Assembly: GCA_028693705.1 (NCBI GenBank)
Contig: JAQUUX010000002.1
Location: forward strand, 19,598-83,597
Direction: 5' to 3'
DNA from: Lachnospiraceae bacterium
GTDB lineage: Bacteria > Bacillota > Clostridia > Lachnospirales > Lachnospiraceae
Length of the DNA stretch: 64,000 nucleotides
Numbering within the stretch: the first letter of the stretch is position 1; each line of letters starts with the position of its first letter. A program made the position numbers and the translations under genes. Positions 1-49,290 of the stretch are shown here, one piece after another. Below the pieces are notes generated by a model. The model ran no database searches. It was given only the letters and a program-made list of their open reading frames with translations, and was not told the origin of the DNA.

Positions 1-600
1 TAAAGTCAGTTTATCAAAATCTGTAATCTGACCAACTCGGGTATTTTCAATAGTTACATTTACTCTCTCTACTGGTGTGTAGATAGAATCAATGGCAATT
101 ACACCGATTGGAAGGTCATCATTTTTGTTCTTATCAGCGCTTACATAACCTCTTCCCTTGGTAATAGTAAGTTCAATAAATAATTTATAATCCTTACCAC
201 CACTTAAGGTAGCGATTACCTGATCCGGATTTAAGATTTCAATATCCTGATCACACTGAATATCGGAAGCTTTTACAACACCTTCTCCTTCATACTCAAT
301 GTATGCTGTTTTTGGTGCATTCGCATCACTGTTATTACGAATAGCAAGACTCTTGATATTCATAATGATCTCAGAAACATCTTCCTTTACGCCAGGGATG
401 GAACTAAACTCGTGTAAAACGCCCTCGATCTTGATCTGGCTTACTGCTGCTCCCGGTAAAGAAGAAAGCATAATTCTTCTTAAGGAGTTACCAAGTGTAA
501 TACCATAACCTCTTTCCAATGGCTCCACGATGAACTTGCCATACTTCTTATCTTCAGAGATTTCTGCAACCTCAATATTAGGTCTCTCAAAATCAAACAC
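1..600 (-). CDS. rpoA: RNA polymerase alpha subunit, C-terminal part cut by window edge
   Basis: Alpha dimerises and scaffolds beta and beta-prime in RNA polymerase; its C-terminal domain contacts UP elements and activators. The first 200 codons are visible and open to the window edge; the N-terminal domain includes the motif [14 protein letters not shown] followed by a LSSLPGAAV stretch, diagnostic for alpha. I chose a GTG start at 598-600 because GGAGGG lies 8-9 bases upstream and the next residues read [10 protein letters not shown], as in Clostridia alpha subunits. It is the last visible gene of the rpmJ-rpsM-rpsK-rpsD-rpoA unit. rplQ would be expected next but lies outside the window. 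Confidence 0.97.
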
Positions 601-15756: not shown

Positions 15757-16022
15757 AAAAAAAGTCGCCTCCTTTTCGCACTTTTTAGATTAAGTACGAC
15801 AAGCGGTGACTGTACACTCTCCCGTGTGTGTCCTGCAAAAGCACTTCACATACGTCGTTTCTACAACTTCATTTCTGTAGACGTTTTTACTGTACAGTGA
15901 CTTGTCGTCAGTTTCCTGGGTACCTTACGGCCCCTTGACATTCGCTCCACGGAAAACCTGCTTTAGAATTATTGTTTTTTCTAAGCAGCAACCTCACGCT
16001 TCATAGCTATCATGCCACAGCA
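15757..16022 (-). promoter_or_regulatory. Structured leader RNA upstream of rpsJ (candidate S10-operon leader)
   Basis: From the predicted start near 16022 to the rpsJ ATG is about 265 nt without a gene. A long-range helix joins CTTGTCGT (15901-15908) and TGTACAGT (15891-15898) with ACGACAAG (15796-15803) and ACTGTACA (15809-15816), with an internal loop between. It encloses a further stem (ACGT and CTACA at 15852-15865 with TGTAG and ACGT at 15876-15884). Candidate leader RNAs before S10 have, as I recall, been proposed in Clostridia; whether this is that class needs a covariance search. Ligand would most likely be a ribosomal protein such as L4. Confidence 0.6.
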
Positions 16023-16109: not shown

Positions 16110-16400
16110 TTGGAAGTGATTTTTGTTGGAAATGGGTGTAATTCGCAATAGATGGAATGTATTTCTGCGGCGTTGTGCGGGAATAAGATGTTCTAAGTAT
16201 TCCGGTTAACTTTCTTGTTGCTTTCGCAATCGGCTTATAGGTGCCATCCGGGCACCATAAGCCTTTTTCGGACATCCTTGTCCGAAAATTGCTGGTATCC
16301 GGATCGGAATGCTAAGAACATCTAATTCCCTGCCAAAGCTGCAAAAATATATTCTATCTATTGTGATAACATCTATTGCAATTATTCACTTCAAATCACT
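16110..16400 (+). ncRNA. Large structured element E1 (candidate non-coding RNA or palindromic repeat)
   Basis: Two ~60-base arms (16144-16203 and 16306-16365) pair almost throughout, centred at 16254. Several of the mismatched positions in the arms are G-U on the plus-strand RNA, favouring the plus strand. The arms enclose a 112-nt core (16199-16310) with a GCTTTCGC hairpin, a two-part stem closed by GCC-ATCCG-GGC, a stem closed by CATCCTTG, and a CTGG/CCGG hairpin. Element E2 at 19568-19887, read on the minus strand, has the same core order with compensating base changes. A 15-base tandem repeat (ATCTATTG twice, 16356-16379) occurs in the right arm. No ORF is credible. Confidence 0.65.
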
Positions 16401-16667
16401 GCCTGTGTGGTTATCAGCAATAGTTGGAGTATTACCTCTATATTCTAACTATATATTATAGAAGAAACACGTTTTTATTTCTACTGATTCTTTTCTATAT
16501 TATTTTCTATATTATAATGAATACTCTCTTTTTACCTACGCTGCTTTTCAATGAAATGATAACTTGTCCTTATCAGATTGGTATTGACAGTATGTCGTAC
16601 AACGAAGTTGCATGACATACTGCCAATGCAATCCACTAAGTACACATTTTTATTTCATTAGAAAACC
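16401..16667. other. AT-rich gap downstream of putP with a 45-nt hairpin
   Basis: No gene seen. The stretch is AT-rich and contains one notable fold at 16583-16627: ATTGACAGTATGTC pairs with GACATACTGCCAAT, continuing as an inner stem around a TTC/GAA loop. It begins about 40 bases beyond the putP stop codon but no T-run follows on the minus strand, so it is at best an imperfect terminator. Confidence 0.45.
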
Positions 16668-18203
16668 TTACTCCACATTGCGATTCTTTACATCCTCAAA
16701 TTCCTGCAGAATTTCTGCACTTGGTTCAGGAGTAGCAAGGCTGACTACGATAATAAATACCAAACTGATTACAAAACCGGAAGCCAGAGAATATAATCCG
16801 GTAACAGTTCCAATAGTCTGTCCTCCTATAATAGGAAGATAATCCCACACCAGAACTGTTAATGCTCCGCTGGCAATACCTGCAACAGCCCCCTGGAGAT
16901 TGGTTCTCTTCCAGAACAAAGATAACAGTACTGTTGGTCCAAACGCTGCGCCCAGACCTGCCCATGCGTTAGATACCAGGCCCATGATGGAGCTGTTAGG
17001 GTTTAAAGCAATTATGTACGCCAGAACTGCAATAACAACAACTGTGATTCTGCTGATGCGTAAAACTGTTTTGTCATCTGCATCTTTACGGATAATACCT
17101 TTATAAATATCTTCTGCCATACTGGAGGCTGATACTAAAAGCTGTGAATCTGCGGTTGACATAATTGCAGCCAAAATACCACAGAGGAATATACCTCCAA
17201 TAACAGGTGCATTAATATCCTGGGTAAATACCTTTATAATCATCTGAATAAATACTTTTTCTTCTGCACCACCGGTTAAAACTTCCGGATACAGATACGC
17301 TCTTCCCACAACACCAATAATACATGCAAACACTAAGGACAGTGCAACCCAGATAATAGCAACTCCTTTGGATTTGTTTAATTCTTTTTCATCTCTGACT
17401 GCCATGAAACGAACCAGAATATGAGGCATACCACAGTAACCAAGTCCCCATGCCAGCTGTGAAATAATATCAACGGCTGAATATGTACCGGAACCGCTGT
17501 TCATCACTGCCAGATAAGCTGCTGAACCGCCTTCTACTCCACTTGCATCCAGAAGAGATACAATATCACCGCCAATGAAACCATATGCAACCAAAGGAAC
17601 AATCAGTAATCCGATTAACATCAATGTCCCCTGGATAAAATCGGTAGCACAAACGGCCATAAATCCACCCATGAATGTATAAGTCAAAATAACGATTGCA
17701 CCGATAGTCAATGCAATTTTATAATCAAGACCAAATACTGAATTAAATAATTTTCCACCGGCAGCCAAAGCTGATGCTGTATATACCAAAAAGAAAATTA
17801 CAATTGTAATAGAAGAAATCAATAACAATATTCTCTTCTTATCATGAAATCTGTTTTCAAAATAGGTTGGCAACGTCAATGCGTTATTTGCGCGAATGGT
17901 ATATCGGCGTAATCTTCCGGAAATAAAAAGCCAGTTACAAACTGTACCAATAAACAAACCAACAGCTATCCAGATCTGTCCGGTTCCCATTGCATATACT
18001 GAACCCGGTAAGCCCATCAAAAGCCAGCCACTCATGTCAGATGCCTGAGCAGATAAAGCTGCCACAAAGCCACCCAGCTTTCTTCCTCCCAGGAAATAAT
18101 CCTCCGCATTACTATTTTTCTTGGCATAAATAGCACCTACAACAACCATACACAGCAGGTATAGCACAAATGCTACTATGATCCATCCTATAGAATCACT
18201 CAT
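16668..18203 (-). CDS. Sodium/solute symporter, PutP-like (SSS family)
   Basis: Na+-coupled uptake carrier of the solute:sodium symporter family, probably for proline. The 511-residue product starts MSDSIGWIIVAFVLYLLC (GAGGGAG upstream); a 29-residue longer reading is unlikely. About 13 hydrophobic segments are visible, with the SSS motif region LSAQASDMSGWLLMGLPGSV (residues about 40-60) and AIMSTADSQLLVSASSMAED, where the ADSQL-type serine/aspartate contribute to the Na+ site. The pattern closely follows PutP, but substrate is inferred. Single-gene unit with its own promoter, divergent from the methyltransferase at 18415. Confidence 0.88.
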   Translation of the reverse strand: MSDSIGWIIVAFVLYLLCMVVVGAIYAKKNSNAEDYFLGGRKLGGFVAALSAQASDMSGWLLMGLPGSVYAMGTGQIWIAVGLFIGTVCNWLFISGRLRRYTIRANNALTLPTYFENRFHDKKRILLLISSITIVIFFLVYTASALAAGGKLFNSVFGLDYKIALTIGAIVILTYTFMGGFMAVCATDFIQGTLMLIGLLIVPLVAYGFIGGDIVSLLDASGVEGGSAAYLAVMNSGSGTYSAVDIISQLAWGLGYCGMPHILVRFMAVRDEKELNKSKGVAIIWVALSLVFACIIGVVGRAYLYPEVLTGGAEEKVFIQMIIKVFTQDINAPVIGGIFLCGILAAIMSTADSQLLVSASSMAEDIYKGIIRKDADDKTVLRISRITVVVIAVLAYIIALNPNSSIMGLVSNAWAGLGAAFGPTVLLSLFWKRTNLQGAVAGIASGALTVLVWDYLPIIGGQTIGTVTGLYSLASGFVISLVFIIVVSLATPEPSAEILQEFEDVKNRNVE

Positions 18204-18269
18204 AGTCTCCCTCTTTCTGCCGTGGAAACGACATTTTATTATTGTATACGAAAATACAACTTGTTGTTC

Positions 18270-18298
18270 ATTATAATAGAGGATTGTCATTTCGTCAA
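18270..18298 (-). promoter_or_regulatory. Sigma-A promoter of the symporter gene
   Basis: TTGACG (18293-18298) and a perfect TATAAT (18270-18275), minus strand, with 17-bp spacing. An inverted repeat ACAAC/GTTGT at 18256-18267 covers the probable start site and might be an operator. Confidence 0.75.
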
Positions 18299-18354
18299 CT
18301 TATTGCATAATTCCATTTTGTTATATCTTGTATGCCTATCTTCAACTAAACTTG

Positions 18355-18382
18355 TTGTACTAAGTCTGTTTTATGGTAAAAT
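18355..18382 (+). promoter_or_regulatory. Promoter of the methyltransferase gene
   Basis: TTGTAC (18355-18360), 16 bp, TAAAAT (18377-18382) preceded by TG, i.e. an extended -10. It lies 33 bases before the ATG at 18415. Confidence 0.5.
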
Positions 18383-18414
18383 AAATGCAGTAAAGTTTCA
18401 ACAAGGAGAAAATT

Positions 18415-19278
18415 ATGTGGATTGCTGATCAGTGGAAAGACTATGAAGTACTTGATACTTCTGAAGGAGAGAAATTAGAGAGATGGGGAAAATACCTATT
18501 GGTACGTCCTGATCCCCAGGTTATCTGGAACACTCCCAAGAAGTTACCGGACTGGAAAAAAATGAACGGCCATTATCATAGAAGTGCAAAAGGCGGTGGT
18601 GAATGGGAGTTTTTTGATCTGCCAAACGAATGGAGCATCAGTTATAAAGAACTTACTTTTCATTTGAAGCCCTTCAGTTTCAAGCATACTGGTTTATTTC
18701 CTGAGCAAGCAACCAACTGGGACTGGTTTTCTTCTTTAATAAAAGGTGCAAGCAGACCGATTAAAGTACTAAACTTATTTGCCTATACCGGTGGCGCCAC
18801 CCTCGCTGCCGCAGCTGCGGGTGCAACTGTAACTCATGTGGATGCTTCTAAAGGTATGGTTAACTGGGCTAAAGAAAATGCTGCCGCCAGTGGTTTGGAG
18901 GATGCACCGATTCGTTGGCTGGTCGACGATTGTGGCAAGTTTGTAGAACGTGAAATCCGTCGTGGCAATCGTTACGATGCCATTATCATGGATCCGCCCT
19001 CCTATGGACGCGGTCCTAAGGGAGAAATCTGGAAAATTGAGGACAGCATTTATCCCTTCATCGAGCTGACCACACAGATCTTATCAGACAAACCGCTTTT
19101 CTTCCTGGTTAATTCCTATACCACAGGATTACAGCCTGCTGTTTTATCTTATATGATAAATACTGCTCTTGTTGGAAAGTTCGGTGGTCACGTAACAGCT
19201 TCTGAAATCGGACTGCCGGTTAGTTCCAATGGGTTGGTGCTGCCATGCGGAGCTTCAGGGCGGTGGACAAATAACTAA
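18415..19278 (+). CDS. Class I SAM-dependent methyltransferase, RlmI/RlmK-like catalytic domain
   Basis: Probably an RNA or protein methyltransferase. In the 287-residue product the Rossmann motif I is LNLFAYTGGATLAAAAAG (about residues 120-137), the acidic residue ending beta-2 is in THVDAS, and motif IV is IIMDPPSYGRG, as in the 23S rRNA m5C methyltransferases RlmI/RlmK; the PUA domain of RlmI is absent. The N-terminal ~80 residues are a separate small domain. AAGGAG precedes the ATG. The stop codon coincides with the left end of palindrome E3, so the gene ends exactly where the repeat begins, but the C-terminus (GLVLPCGASGRW) is of normal form. Confidence 0.85.
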   Translation: MWIADQWKDYEVLDTSEGEKLERWGKYLLVRPDPQVIWNTPKKLPDWKKMNGHYHRSAKGGGEWEFFDLPNEWSISYKELTFHLKPFSFKHTGLFPEQATNWDWFSSLIKGASRPIKVLNLFAYTGGATLAAAAAGATVTHVDASKGMVNWAKENAAASGLEDAPIRWLVDDCGKFVEREIRRGNRYDAIIMDPPSYGRGPKGEIWKIEDSIYPFIELTTQILSDKPLFFLVNSYTTGLQPAVLSYMINTALVGKFGGHVTASEIGLPVSSNGLVLPCGASGRWTNN

Positions 19279-19493
19279 ACTGCAGATTAAAGGAATAAAG
19301 ATTGATGTAAAGGGACGGTTCAGCCGTGTATCATATGCTCACAAGCCCGTTTTCACTACGGTAAACACGTAGCTGTACATAAGTTCGCACAAGACGCGAA
19401 CTAAGTACAGACGCGTTTACAGTGCTTGTTCGCATACGATACACGGCTGAACCTCGTTTTACGGTAATGTTTATTTCCTTTAAGCTGCAATTT
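19277..19493. repeat. Long imperfect palindrome E3
   Basis: A 217-bp imperfect palindrome centred near 19385. The outer arms share AAACTGCAGATTAAAGGAA on the left and the near-identical complement on the right; GGTTCAGCCGTGTATC (19317-19332) pairs perfectly with 19438-19453; inner stems are CTGTAC/GTACAG and AGTTCGC/GCGAACT. An extra small hairpin (CCG/CGG) bulges from the left arm. Open frames through it are by-products of the palindrome. The terminal AACTGCAG sequence is shared with E2. Confidence 0.75.
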
Positions 19494-19567
19494 GTGGTGC
19501 TAGTGCATAGACCCCAGTTACGGCAAATGAATAGTTGCAATAGTTTAGCCTTGGCTACAGACCGGGC
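19494..19567. other. Spacer between palindromes E3 and E2
   Basis: 74 bases separate the two palindromes. I see no gene, promoter or repeat that I can support here. Confidence 0.4.
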
Positions 19568-19887
19568 CAACTGCAGATTGGCAACTTGAAAAGAATAGCG
19601 AATGTAACGAACAGGCAGTGGTGCGGGTGTGTATTCTTCCATTGCCTGTGAACATGTATTAAAGCCACTTAATCATTCCCAGCTGTTACCACAGCTATTC
19701 CGGGCAAGGATGCCCGGAAAGGAACCTCAGAGCCAGGATGGCGATTGGTTCCGTTAGCGTAAGCTGCTGCAATCTAACTGGAATGATCTAGTGGTTTTTA
19801 TACGTGCGAGCGGCAATGGAAGGATGCACACCCGCACCACTGCCGTCTCGTTATAATTATTATTTGCAAGTTTCTAACCTACAGTTT
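19568..19887 (-). ncRNA. Large structured element E2, same core as E1
   Basis: Arms 19568-19679 and 19780-19887 are complementary over about 100 bases with interruptions; the block starting GGCAGTGGTGCGGGTGTG (19614) matches 30 of 33 positions with its partner. The core 19675-19784, read on the minus strand, runs ATTCC, AGTTA, a GCTTACGC hairpin, a GGAACC/GGTTCC stem closed by GCC-ATCCT-GGC, a CCGGGCA/TGCCCGG stem closed by TCCT, then AGCTGT/ACAGCT, GGAAT. This is the E1 order with different stem bases and the same loops. The right end overlaps the stop codon of the EamA gene. Confidence 0.65.
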
Positions 19888-20772
19888 ACCACTTGATTCC
19901 GGCATCTGCGCCAGAATCACTGCTGCAAAAACGATTGCACATCCCAGGAATTCCCTTACCGTCATTTGATCCTTTAAGATCAGCCAGCCTGCCAACGCGG
20001 AGAATACTGACTCCAAACTCATTAACAAAGTTGCAACAACAGGTGCAACATCCTTTTGTGCAATGATCTGTAGTGTATAAGCTACTCCACTGGATAATAC
20101 ACCTGCGTATAAGATACATTCCTTCGCATCCCATATTGCGCTCCATGAAGGCGTTTCAAAAAAGAACATTAAGATACAGCTGATCACTCCGCAAACCAGA
20201 AACTGTATGCTGGATAATCTAACGCCATCTACTCTTGGAGAAAAATAATCCACGACAAGAATATGACCTGAAAACAGCACGGCACATATTAAAACCATCA
20301 TATCGCCATATCCAATAGAAAAGTCCTCTTTAATACAAAGCAGATAAAAACCTATAACAGCAACAACTACGCTGATCCATGCCAGGTTGGATACTTTTTT
20401 ATGTAGAAACAATCCGAAAAGTGGAACCAGGATGATATACAAAGCTGTGATAAATCCACCTTTACCTGCCGTTGTATACTGCAAGCCTATTTGCTGAAAG
20501 ATACTTCCACCAAACAAAAACAAACCACAAAACAGGCCACCGGTTAAAAGGCTCTTCTGATTTAACTTCATCTTTCTTTTTTCATCTTCACTGCGGAAAT
20601 GATCCTGCACAAGAATAACCGGTATCAGCACCGCACTTCCTATTAACATACGAATGCCACAATAGGTAAAAGGACCAACATAGTCCATTCCTTTTTTTTG
20701 AGCGACAAAAGCGCTGCCCCAGATCATTGCTGTCAGCAGCAGTAGTAGGCTTCCACGAATCTGTTTTTTCAT
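19879..20772 (-). CDS. EamA-family transporter (DMT superfamily)
   Basis: Membrane exporter-type protein with ten predicted TM helices formed by two EamA repeats (about residues 8-145 and 155-290). I chose the start MKKQIRGSLLLLL because GAGGAAC lies just upstream; an ATG/TTG 22 residues earlier lacks a ribosome site. The motif MIWGSAFVAQKKG in TM1 and SLESVFSALAGWLILKDQM near the end are family hallmarks. Substrate unknown; related proteins export amino acids or metabolites. Its stop codon lies in the right arm of E2. Confidence 0.88.
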   Translation of the reverse strand: MKKQIRGSLLLLLTAMIWGSAFVAQKKGMDYVGPFTYCGIRMLIGSAVLIPVILVQDHFRSEDEKRKMKLNQKSLLTGGLFCGLFLFGGSIFQQIGLQYTTAGKGGFITALYIILVPLFGLFLHKKVSNLAWISVVVAVIGFYLLCIKEDFSIGYGDMMVLICAVLFSGHILVVDYFSPRVDGVRLSSIQFLVCGVISCILMFFFETPSWSAIWDAKECILYAGVLSSGVAYTLQIIAQKDVAPVVATLLMSLESVFSALAGWLILKDQMTVREFLGCAIVFAAVILAQMPESSGKL

Positions 20773-20849
20773 AATGTTCCTCATACTGACGATTTTCATA
20801 CTTTTGCAACCTGCAGTTGCACTATTTTCGCCAAGCAATAGTTTAACCC

Positions 20850-49067: not shown

Positions 49068-49131
49068 TTTACTTTTCTACCTCCTTATAGATTTTGTTTG
49101 AGGTTTCTCAAATGAACCGCAAGGCAATCCA

Positions 49132-49290
49132 AATAAAAAAACCTCCCTGAAGACAGGAAGGTTAATAGTCTATTAACTCTCATCCTCGGTAGGCGACTAA
49201 GCTTACGTTCTGTTTCCAGAACACCTACTGTCTTCGGCATGGCGATCAAATATTGTAACCATAAATGGTTTTATCTCTGAACGACCTTAG
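49132..49290 (-). promoter_or_regulatory. L10 leader RNA with terminal attenuator
   Basis: From the start near 49287 the minus-strand RNA carries the features of ribosomal L10 leaders: a GTTCTGG/CAGAAC stem region, CCTACCGAGG, the TTAATAG/TATTAA helix, then a perfect AACCTTCCTG/CAGGGAGGTT terminator stem (49140-49163) followed by seven T. L10-L12 binding favours termination. Assigned from position and the visible layout, without a database comparison. Confidence 0.75.

Follow-up and report, generated by a model that had tools for sequence, protein, structure and literature searches.

TwoAYGGAY (Rfam family RF01731) is a known family that is an orphan in function. It was first listed in 2010 as a probable RNA found in human gut, gamma-Proteobacteria, and Clostridiales, and the table of that survey marks it as "probably not" cis-regulatory (PMC2864571), whereas Rfam classes it as type "Cis-reg". 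In the passage of a 2014 paper that deals with the family, binding of CsrA was predicted from the loops and the authors wrote that validation was yet to come (PMC4333381), so CsrA binding is a prediction. Passages of three papers on the family report neither amplification nor mobility. The closest other systems are the CsrA-sequestering small RNAs (sRNAs) CsrB/CsrC and RsmX/Y/Z, in which one gene carries many sites, the repetitive extragenic palindromic (REP) sequences and REPINs, and miniature inverted-repeat transposable elements (MITEs). Here, we analysed a stretch of 64,000 nucleotides (nt) from a Lachnospiraceae bacterium (assembly GCA_028693705.1, contig JAQUUX010000002.1, positions 19,598 to 83,597; hereafter the window, from whose first letter positions are counted), which contains two TwoAYGGAY elements, E1 and E2. 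We propose that TwoAYGGAY is a mobile palindromic DNA hairpin whose tip, when transcribed, would be a two-site CsrA decoy, a reading that seems to us as apt to prove right as wrong.

Both elements matched the whole RF01731 model (positions 1-168 of 168) far above its gathering score of 43 (table 1). A preliminary description of this DNA had presented them as a homologous pair of multi-hairpin elements, with stem changes that compensate each other, kept loops, and long outer arms, of a family that might be undescribed and might be either a structured RNA or a folded single-stranded DNA. The motifs and stem pairs it named were recovered in place by a sequence check, the homology was borne out by the Rfam matches and by covariation in 59 aligned copies, and the outer arms are real (62 nt in E1 and 53 nt in E2, each 81% complementary). 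The Rfam match removes the novelty of the family, and the strands have to be exchanged: E1 had been placed on the plus strand and E2 on the minus strand, and the Rfam sense is the opposite. A GCTTWCGC hairpin is present as described, but it lies in a segment that is unpaired in the Rfam consensus, where on the Rfam strand it reads GCGAAAGC (E1) or GCGTAAGC (E2). The AYGGAY-type loops inside the outer stem (AAGGAT and CCGGAT in E1, AAGGAT and CAGGAT in E2) fit AYGGAY loosely.

We found that TwoAYGGAY amplifies separately in each lineage, because in eight genomes 106 of the 108 copies compared were most alike to another copy of the same genome; one of the two exceptions was the sole copy taken from its genome. 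This lineage-by-lineage amplification is new here. The genome from which the window comes (3.12 Mb, 160 contigs; hereafter the source genome) had 40 TwoAYGGAY matches including E1 and E2, 39 of them above the cut-off. The majority (30) were of the E2 type, many of them near-identical, while eight were diverged and E1-like and two aligned poorly. Elsewhere, TwoAYGGAY was held by 20 of 150 genomes in a family draw and by 36 of 391 in a class draw (27 of the 36 above the cut-off), often in several copies; numbers per genome in these draws are "at least" values, as up to 17 candidates were scored in the family draw and up to 7 in the class draw. 6S RNA, in contrast, was mostly single: 57 of 60 genomes had it, 56 of these with a single match. 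One poorly aligned and one below-cut-off copy of the source genome were left out of the nearest-neighbour, arm, stop-codon, and loop-spacing counts, and copies whose flanks ran off the contig were left out of the nearest-neighbour, arm-pairing, T-run, and promoter counts. Among the 38 well-aligned source-genome copies, 11 of the E2 type (L028-L038) carry the same insert, AAAGCCATAAATGGCTTG, at one place of the first hairpin, although they have two different backbones, and the copies may therefore have exchanged sequence; both GGA loops were kept in 10 of these 11. Searches for E1 in phages and for E2 in plasmids, the two combinations covered, gave no match.

The main rival explanation is a selfish palindromic DNA repeat only, in which the folded single strand and its two loops would be recognised by a transposase or recombinase and no RNA or CsrA role would exist. 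Genome-specific amplification is what such a repeat predicts, and so are sharp ends, random orientation, and the lack of a promoter signal. Close pairs of copies agree with it as well: 10 of 11 were arranged minus-then-plus, as in REP doublets, and none plus-then-minus, in genomes G085 and G008, where several regions were chosen for having two close matches. We consider this explanation possible and on the whole doubtful, given the properties of the tip.

The tip of the element consists of two hairpins. The consensus of CsrA ligands obtained by systematic evolution of ligands by exponential enrichment is quoted in a review as RUACARGGAUGU (PMC7652899), and the loops of both hairpins fit it across many taxonomic families, which argues against a selfish repeat without a CsrA role. 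In 59 copies, GGA was present in the first loop of 52 and the second loop of 53, and in a second set of 71 copies it was present in 66 and 66. Copies with GGA in both loops numbered 49 of the 59 and 65 of the 71, and the two GGA started 27-31 nt apart in 48 of those 49 and in all 65. A CsrA dimer is able to bridge two sites some tens of nt apart. The presence of csrA, which also argues against a purely selfish repeat, was associated with the element. In the family draw, csrA was above the cut-off in 20 of 20 TwoAYGGAY holders and in 80 of 150 genomes overall (p = 9.7e-7). The figures for the class draw were 31 of 36 holders and 125 of 391 genomes overall (p = 2.2e-12), or 23 of 27 when only above-cut-off holders were counted (p = 4.6e-9). 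The two draws share three holders (the source genome, G000, and G022 and G059).

The source genome has two CsrA genes, of which the canonical csrA adjoins fliW and matches solved CsrA proteins. Some 2 kb away from csrA-fliW, at 197-310 (+) on a source-genome contig, is a drum RNA (RF02958, 101.8 bits). The second CsrA gene is divergent, has about 90-108 codons, and was seen at seven loci in five genomes (the source genome, G041, G059, G142, and G008). It is adjoined by a tyrosine-recombinase-like open reading frame (ORF) at six of the seven loci and by a flagellin-like ORF at five, with two loci running off the contig first (judged by eye except for the source-genome locus), and these genes possibly form a switchable flagellin module. 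The divergent CsrA gene was ruled out as a part of the TwoAYGGAY element, since a TwoAYGGAY match was near only one of the seven loci.

Both elements fold strongly as RNA. The predicted energies were -101 kcal/mol for E1 (z = -13.4; 0 of 200 shuffles as good) and -170.7 kcal/mol for E2 (z = -14.3; 0 of 100 shuffles as good). A covariance model of the tip (R1), built from 15 copies, recovered just E1 and E2 in the window at E <= 0.01 and gave 59 matches in 54 sources overall. In the alignment of these 59 tips, which is fitted to the structure and therefore leans towards pairing, 22 of 24 pairs showed both-sided changes (439 such cells vs. 135 in shuffles), 86.6% of cells were paired (55.2% in shuffles), and the covariation score was 0.683, whereas shuffles reached 0.150 and slid partners no more than 0.141. 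The drawn structure was taken from a MAFFT seed alignment of 15 copies, which scored 0.506 against 0.149.

Considering that selection on one RNA strand would be expected to tolerate G-U and not A-C, we compared the two mispairs in the long arms. Among 141 distinct copies (13,620 aligned positions), there were 388 G-U and 366 A-C (p = 0.44); when 39 genomes contributed a single copy each, the numbers were 87 and 73 (p = 0.30). In contrast, 6S RNA treated by the same method (n = 30) gave 57 G-U and 17 A-C of 846, a difference from the arms with a Fisher p of 2e-5 (9e-4 with one copy per genome); these counts treat related copies as independent, and three source-genome copies were dropped as doubles, since the test for doubles does not distinguish near-identical copies. 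The 6S RNA replaced a tRNA control (n = 4) that was badly registered. Because A-C is nearly as frequent as G-U in the arms, unlike in 6S RNA, arm pairing looks DNA-made, which is also what a selfish repeat predicts. In genomes G085 and G008, where the arms vary from copy to copy, the best pairing was always between the two arms of the same copy (20 of 20 and 6 of 6); where the arms are alike, own arms pair best in 34% (source genome), 47% (G041), 20% (G121), and 75% (G004) of copies. For the core the result was mixed: well-paired columns, with some copies counted twice, gave 14 G-U vs. 6 A-C in a diverse set and 5 vs. 16 in a paralogue set, and RNAalifold pairs, a choice that itself favours G-U, gave 20 vs. 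6 of 1080, with 237 vs. 9 of 1320 for 6S RNA. Template switching is described as able to make and maintain RNA hairpins (PMC8794818). A DNA-level origin accounts better for the covariation of the arms, while the loops, together with the csrA association, suggest that the tip is an RNA ligand.

E2 is one module of a larger dispersed repeat, the copies of which have sharp common ends at window positions 19276/19277 and 19888; this repeat, whole or partial, was found by blastn at 30 of the 40 source-genome loci. The inverted ends AAACTGYAG and CTRCAGTTT occur at most E2-type ends. TA stands at most ends, as a target-site duplication might leave it, but none of the loci proved to be a true empty site for comparison. 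The left hairpin module was scored at 40 places of the source genome out of 69 candidates, the CTTGGCTACAGACCGG 16-mer had 48 matches there with at most two mismatches (a control pattern had 0), and the modules were separate or joined to other modules in 15 further places examined. In the wider contig collection, from which source-genome records were possibly excluded, the left-end pattern occurred in one other record. As modules, the left hairpin and the spacer with CTTGGCTACAGACCGG (19277-19566) belong to a larger family of mosaic repeats, which is found without TwoAYGGAY as well and resembles bacterial interspersed mosaic elements. In JAQUYA010000092.1, a Lachnospiraceae metagenome-assembled genome, these spacer and hairpin modules lie on either side of an antitoxin gene of the Phd/YefM type and the next small ORF (positions 1-1550), an arrangement that might also be read as integron-like cassettes.

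The repeat tends to lie where genes end. Of the repeat ends, 18 of 24 on the left and 26 of 29 on the right had an ORF of at least 80 codons (by a longest-frame heuristic) that reads in and has its stop in the range from -35 to +26 relative to that end. The stop starts one base ahead of the first A of the repeat in 11 cases on the left (TAA in 10, TGA in 1). In the window, the stop of the methyltransferase gene is built partly from the first bases of the repeat and that of the EamA gene falls within its right end; E2 lies between convergent genes. The end of this methyltransferase is near the same residue in 19 relatives, and the stretch compared there has no TwoAYGGAY match above the cut-off. 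The EamA gene was found beside it in 0 of the 19, so these loci are not strict empty sites. Another explanation is a 3'-end element, serving convergent genes as a bidirectional terminator or mRNA stabiliser. The position of E2-type copies at the stops of convergent genes is in line with this, as are the rarity of divergent neighbours elsewhere (2 of 44 loci) and the other sequence that follows the same methyltransferase in relatives, in several of which a terminator-like hairpin was seen by eye. However, such an element would leave the two kept GGA loops at fixed spacing and the csrA association unexplained, and T-runs were in excess on neither strand. We regard it as unlikely.

Several results weigh against the proposed mobile hairpin with a CsrA-binding tip. 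Consensus scans found no promoter excess over shuffles around 109 distinct copies and no T-run difference between strands (116 rows, some of them doubles). There was no sense bias towards neighbouring genes: 14 loci were same sense, 15 antisense, 13 convergent, and 2 divergent (the 44 of 47 loci with both neighbours called, by a longest-ORF heuristic). GGA was missing from the first loop in 7 of 59 and 5 of 71 copies, and from the second in 6 of 59 and 5 of 71. No csrA was found in 5 of the 36 class-draw holders, three of which are 80-88% complete (G327, G368, and G407), one 95% (G425), and one 98% (G469). The distribution of csrA tracks motility and descent, and the association figures mix these in. 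Another set of 37 single copies, from 33 other genomes and doubles, had a mild G-U excess in the arms (87 vs. 58), which leaves room for some RNA selection there. Finally, the source genome yielded no Y1_Tnp (PF01797) and no DDE_3 transposase, the only two families sought, with controls positive in 5 of 14 for the Y1_Tnp search; this speaks against the selfish repeat too. A REP driven by a REP-associated tyrosine transposase (RAYT) was set aside as no Y1_Tnp was found, and an IS630-type MITE as no DDE_3 was found.

The lack of an own promoter signal implies that a sense RNA would need read-through, and at 27 of 44 loci an upstream gene in sense could read into the element. Consensus scans gave no sign of a separately regulated transcript, with a promoter and a terminator of its own as in the CsrA-sequestering sRNAs, and the fixed sense upstream of a gene class that characterises leader RNAs was not found at the 44 loci. 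The Rfam typing itself and the place of E1 upstream of, and on the same strand as, an S10 leader would suit a cis-regulatory leader RNA. On the other hand, orientation to neighbours was random, the gene at most E2-type right ends was converging rather than downstream, the three relatives' loci with a complete S10 leader had no TwoAYGGAY match, and the 2010 table says "probably not" (PMC2864571). Such a leader is highly improbable.

Table 1. Positions of E1, E2, the E2 repeat, and neighbouring genes in the window
Feature	Position	Strand	Evidence
E1 whole hairpin	16143..16366; arms 16143-16204, 16305-16366	-	inverted repeat 62 nt, 81% complementary; RNA fold
E1 TwoAYGGAY (RF01731) match	16172..16337	-	120.6 bits
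E1 two-hairpin tip	16225..16293	-	own tip model R1, 73.3 bits
E1 loop 1 GGA (ACA-AGGA-TGT)	16275..16277	-	sequence
E1 loop 2 GGA (GCC-CGGAT-GGC)	16247..16249	-	sequence
E2 dispersed repeat, 612 bp, sharp ends	19277..19888	+	blastn among source-genome loci
E2 repeat ends	TAAACTGCAG 19276-19285; CTACAGTTTA 19879-19888		
E2 repeat left hairpin module, without TwoAYGGAY	19277..19493	+	inverted repeats I3 + I7
E2 repeat spacer with CTTGGCTACAGACCGG	19494..19566	+	16-mer matches in genome
E2 whole TwoAYGGAY hairpin module	19567..19888; arms 19594-19646, 19812-19864	+	RNA fold; inverted repeat
E2 TwoAYGGAY (RF01731) match	19646..19813	+	90.1 bits
E2 two-hairpin tip	19693..19759	+	own tip model R1, 63.4 bits
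E2 loop 1 GGA (GCA-AGGA-TGC)	19708..19710	+	sequence
E2 loop 2 GGA (GCC-AGGA-TGGC)	19736..19738	+	sequence
Methyltransferase gene, stop TAA 19276-19278	18415..19278	+	ORF, Pfam Methyltrans_SAM
EamA transporter gene, convergent on E2	19879..20838	-	ORF, Pfam EamA

Two ordinary ribosomal-protein leaders also lie in the window, an S10-Clostridia leader at 15902-16012 (-) and an L10 leader at 49126-49255 (-).

TwoAYGGAY as seen here departs from its Rfam typing in being multi-copy, amplified by lineage, and without a fixed sense to genes, and E2 forms one part of a longer modular repeat. Like the CsrA-sequestering sRNAs, the element has several GGA in hairpin loops and csrA in the same genome, and a CsrA role is predicted (PMC4333381, in its passage on the family). 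Unlike them, it offers two sites per copy over dozens of dispersed copies, it has no promoter or terminator signal, and fliW is present; we do not class it as a member. With REP and REPIN sequences, as described in the relevant passage of PMC3733652, it shares high-copy, genome-specific intergenic palindromes and, in two of the genomes examined, inverted pairs. In contrast to their 20-40 bp, the hairpins here are 220-320 nt long with a forked tip, and the source genome has no RAYT-type transposase, so the element is not classed with these either. The E2 repeat is MITE-like in its short terminal inverted repeats and the TA at most ends, and unlike MITEs in being modular and in lacking a DDE_3 transposase in the source genome.

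The proposed course is as follows. The family of E1 and E2 has probably multiplied in the source genome as non-autonomous mobile DNA of a REPIN- or MITE-like kind. Sense read-through from a gene running into the element would place the hairpin in the 3' untranslated region of that gene, and a CsrA dimer is predicted to sit on the two GGA loops of the transcribed tip. Many dispersed copies might jointly lower free CsrA, beside the protein antagonist FliW, which is also encoded. Compensating change in the long arms would come largely from DNA-level copying between arms by template switching, while the loops would be kept by selection. Put together, a self-spreading palindrome may have turned into a distributed CsrA sponge, with dozens of mobile two-site decoys at 3' ends per genome acting beside FliW and with stems kept perfect by template switching rather than by RNA selection; we offer this fuller scenario tentatively, and would sooner expect parts of it to fail than all of it to hold.

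What is new here is the genomic behaviour of TwoAYGGAY, namely, that of a lineage-specific, probably mobile palindrome with two kept CsrA-type loops. Although labelled cis-regulatory, this orphan Rfam family behaves like a mobile repeat. For RNA discovery, this is a caution that strong covariation in long palindromes may arise at the DNA level, and the ratio of G-U to A-C is a cheap check. A review states, in its passage on this point, that whether FliW and sRNAs jointly act on CsrA in any species is still to be determined (PMC7652899). Such joint action becomes testable in a genome that has both csrA and fliW together with dozens of candidate decoys.

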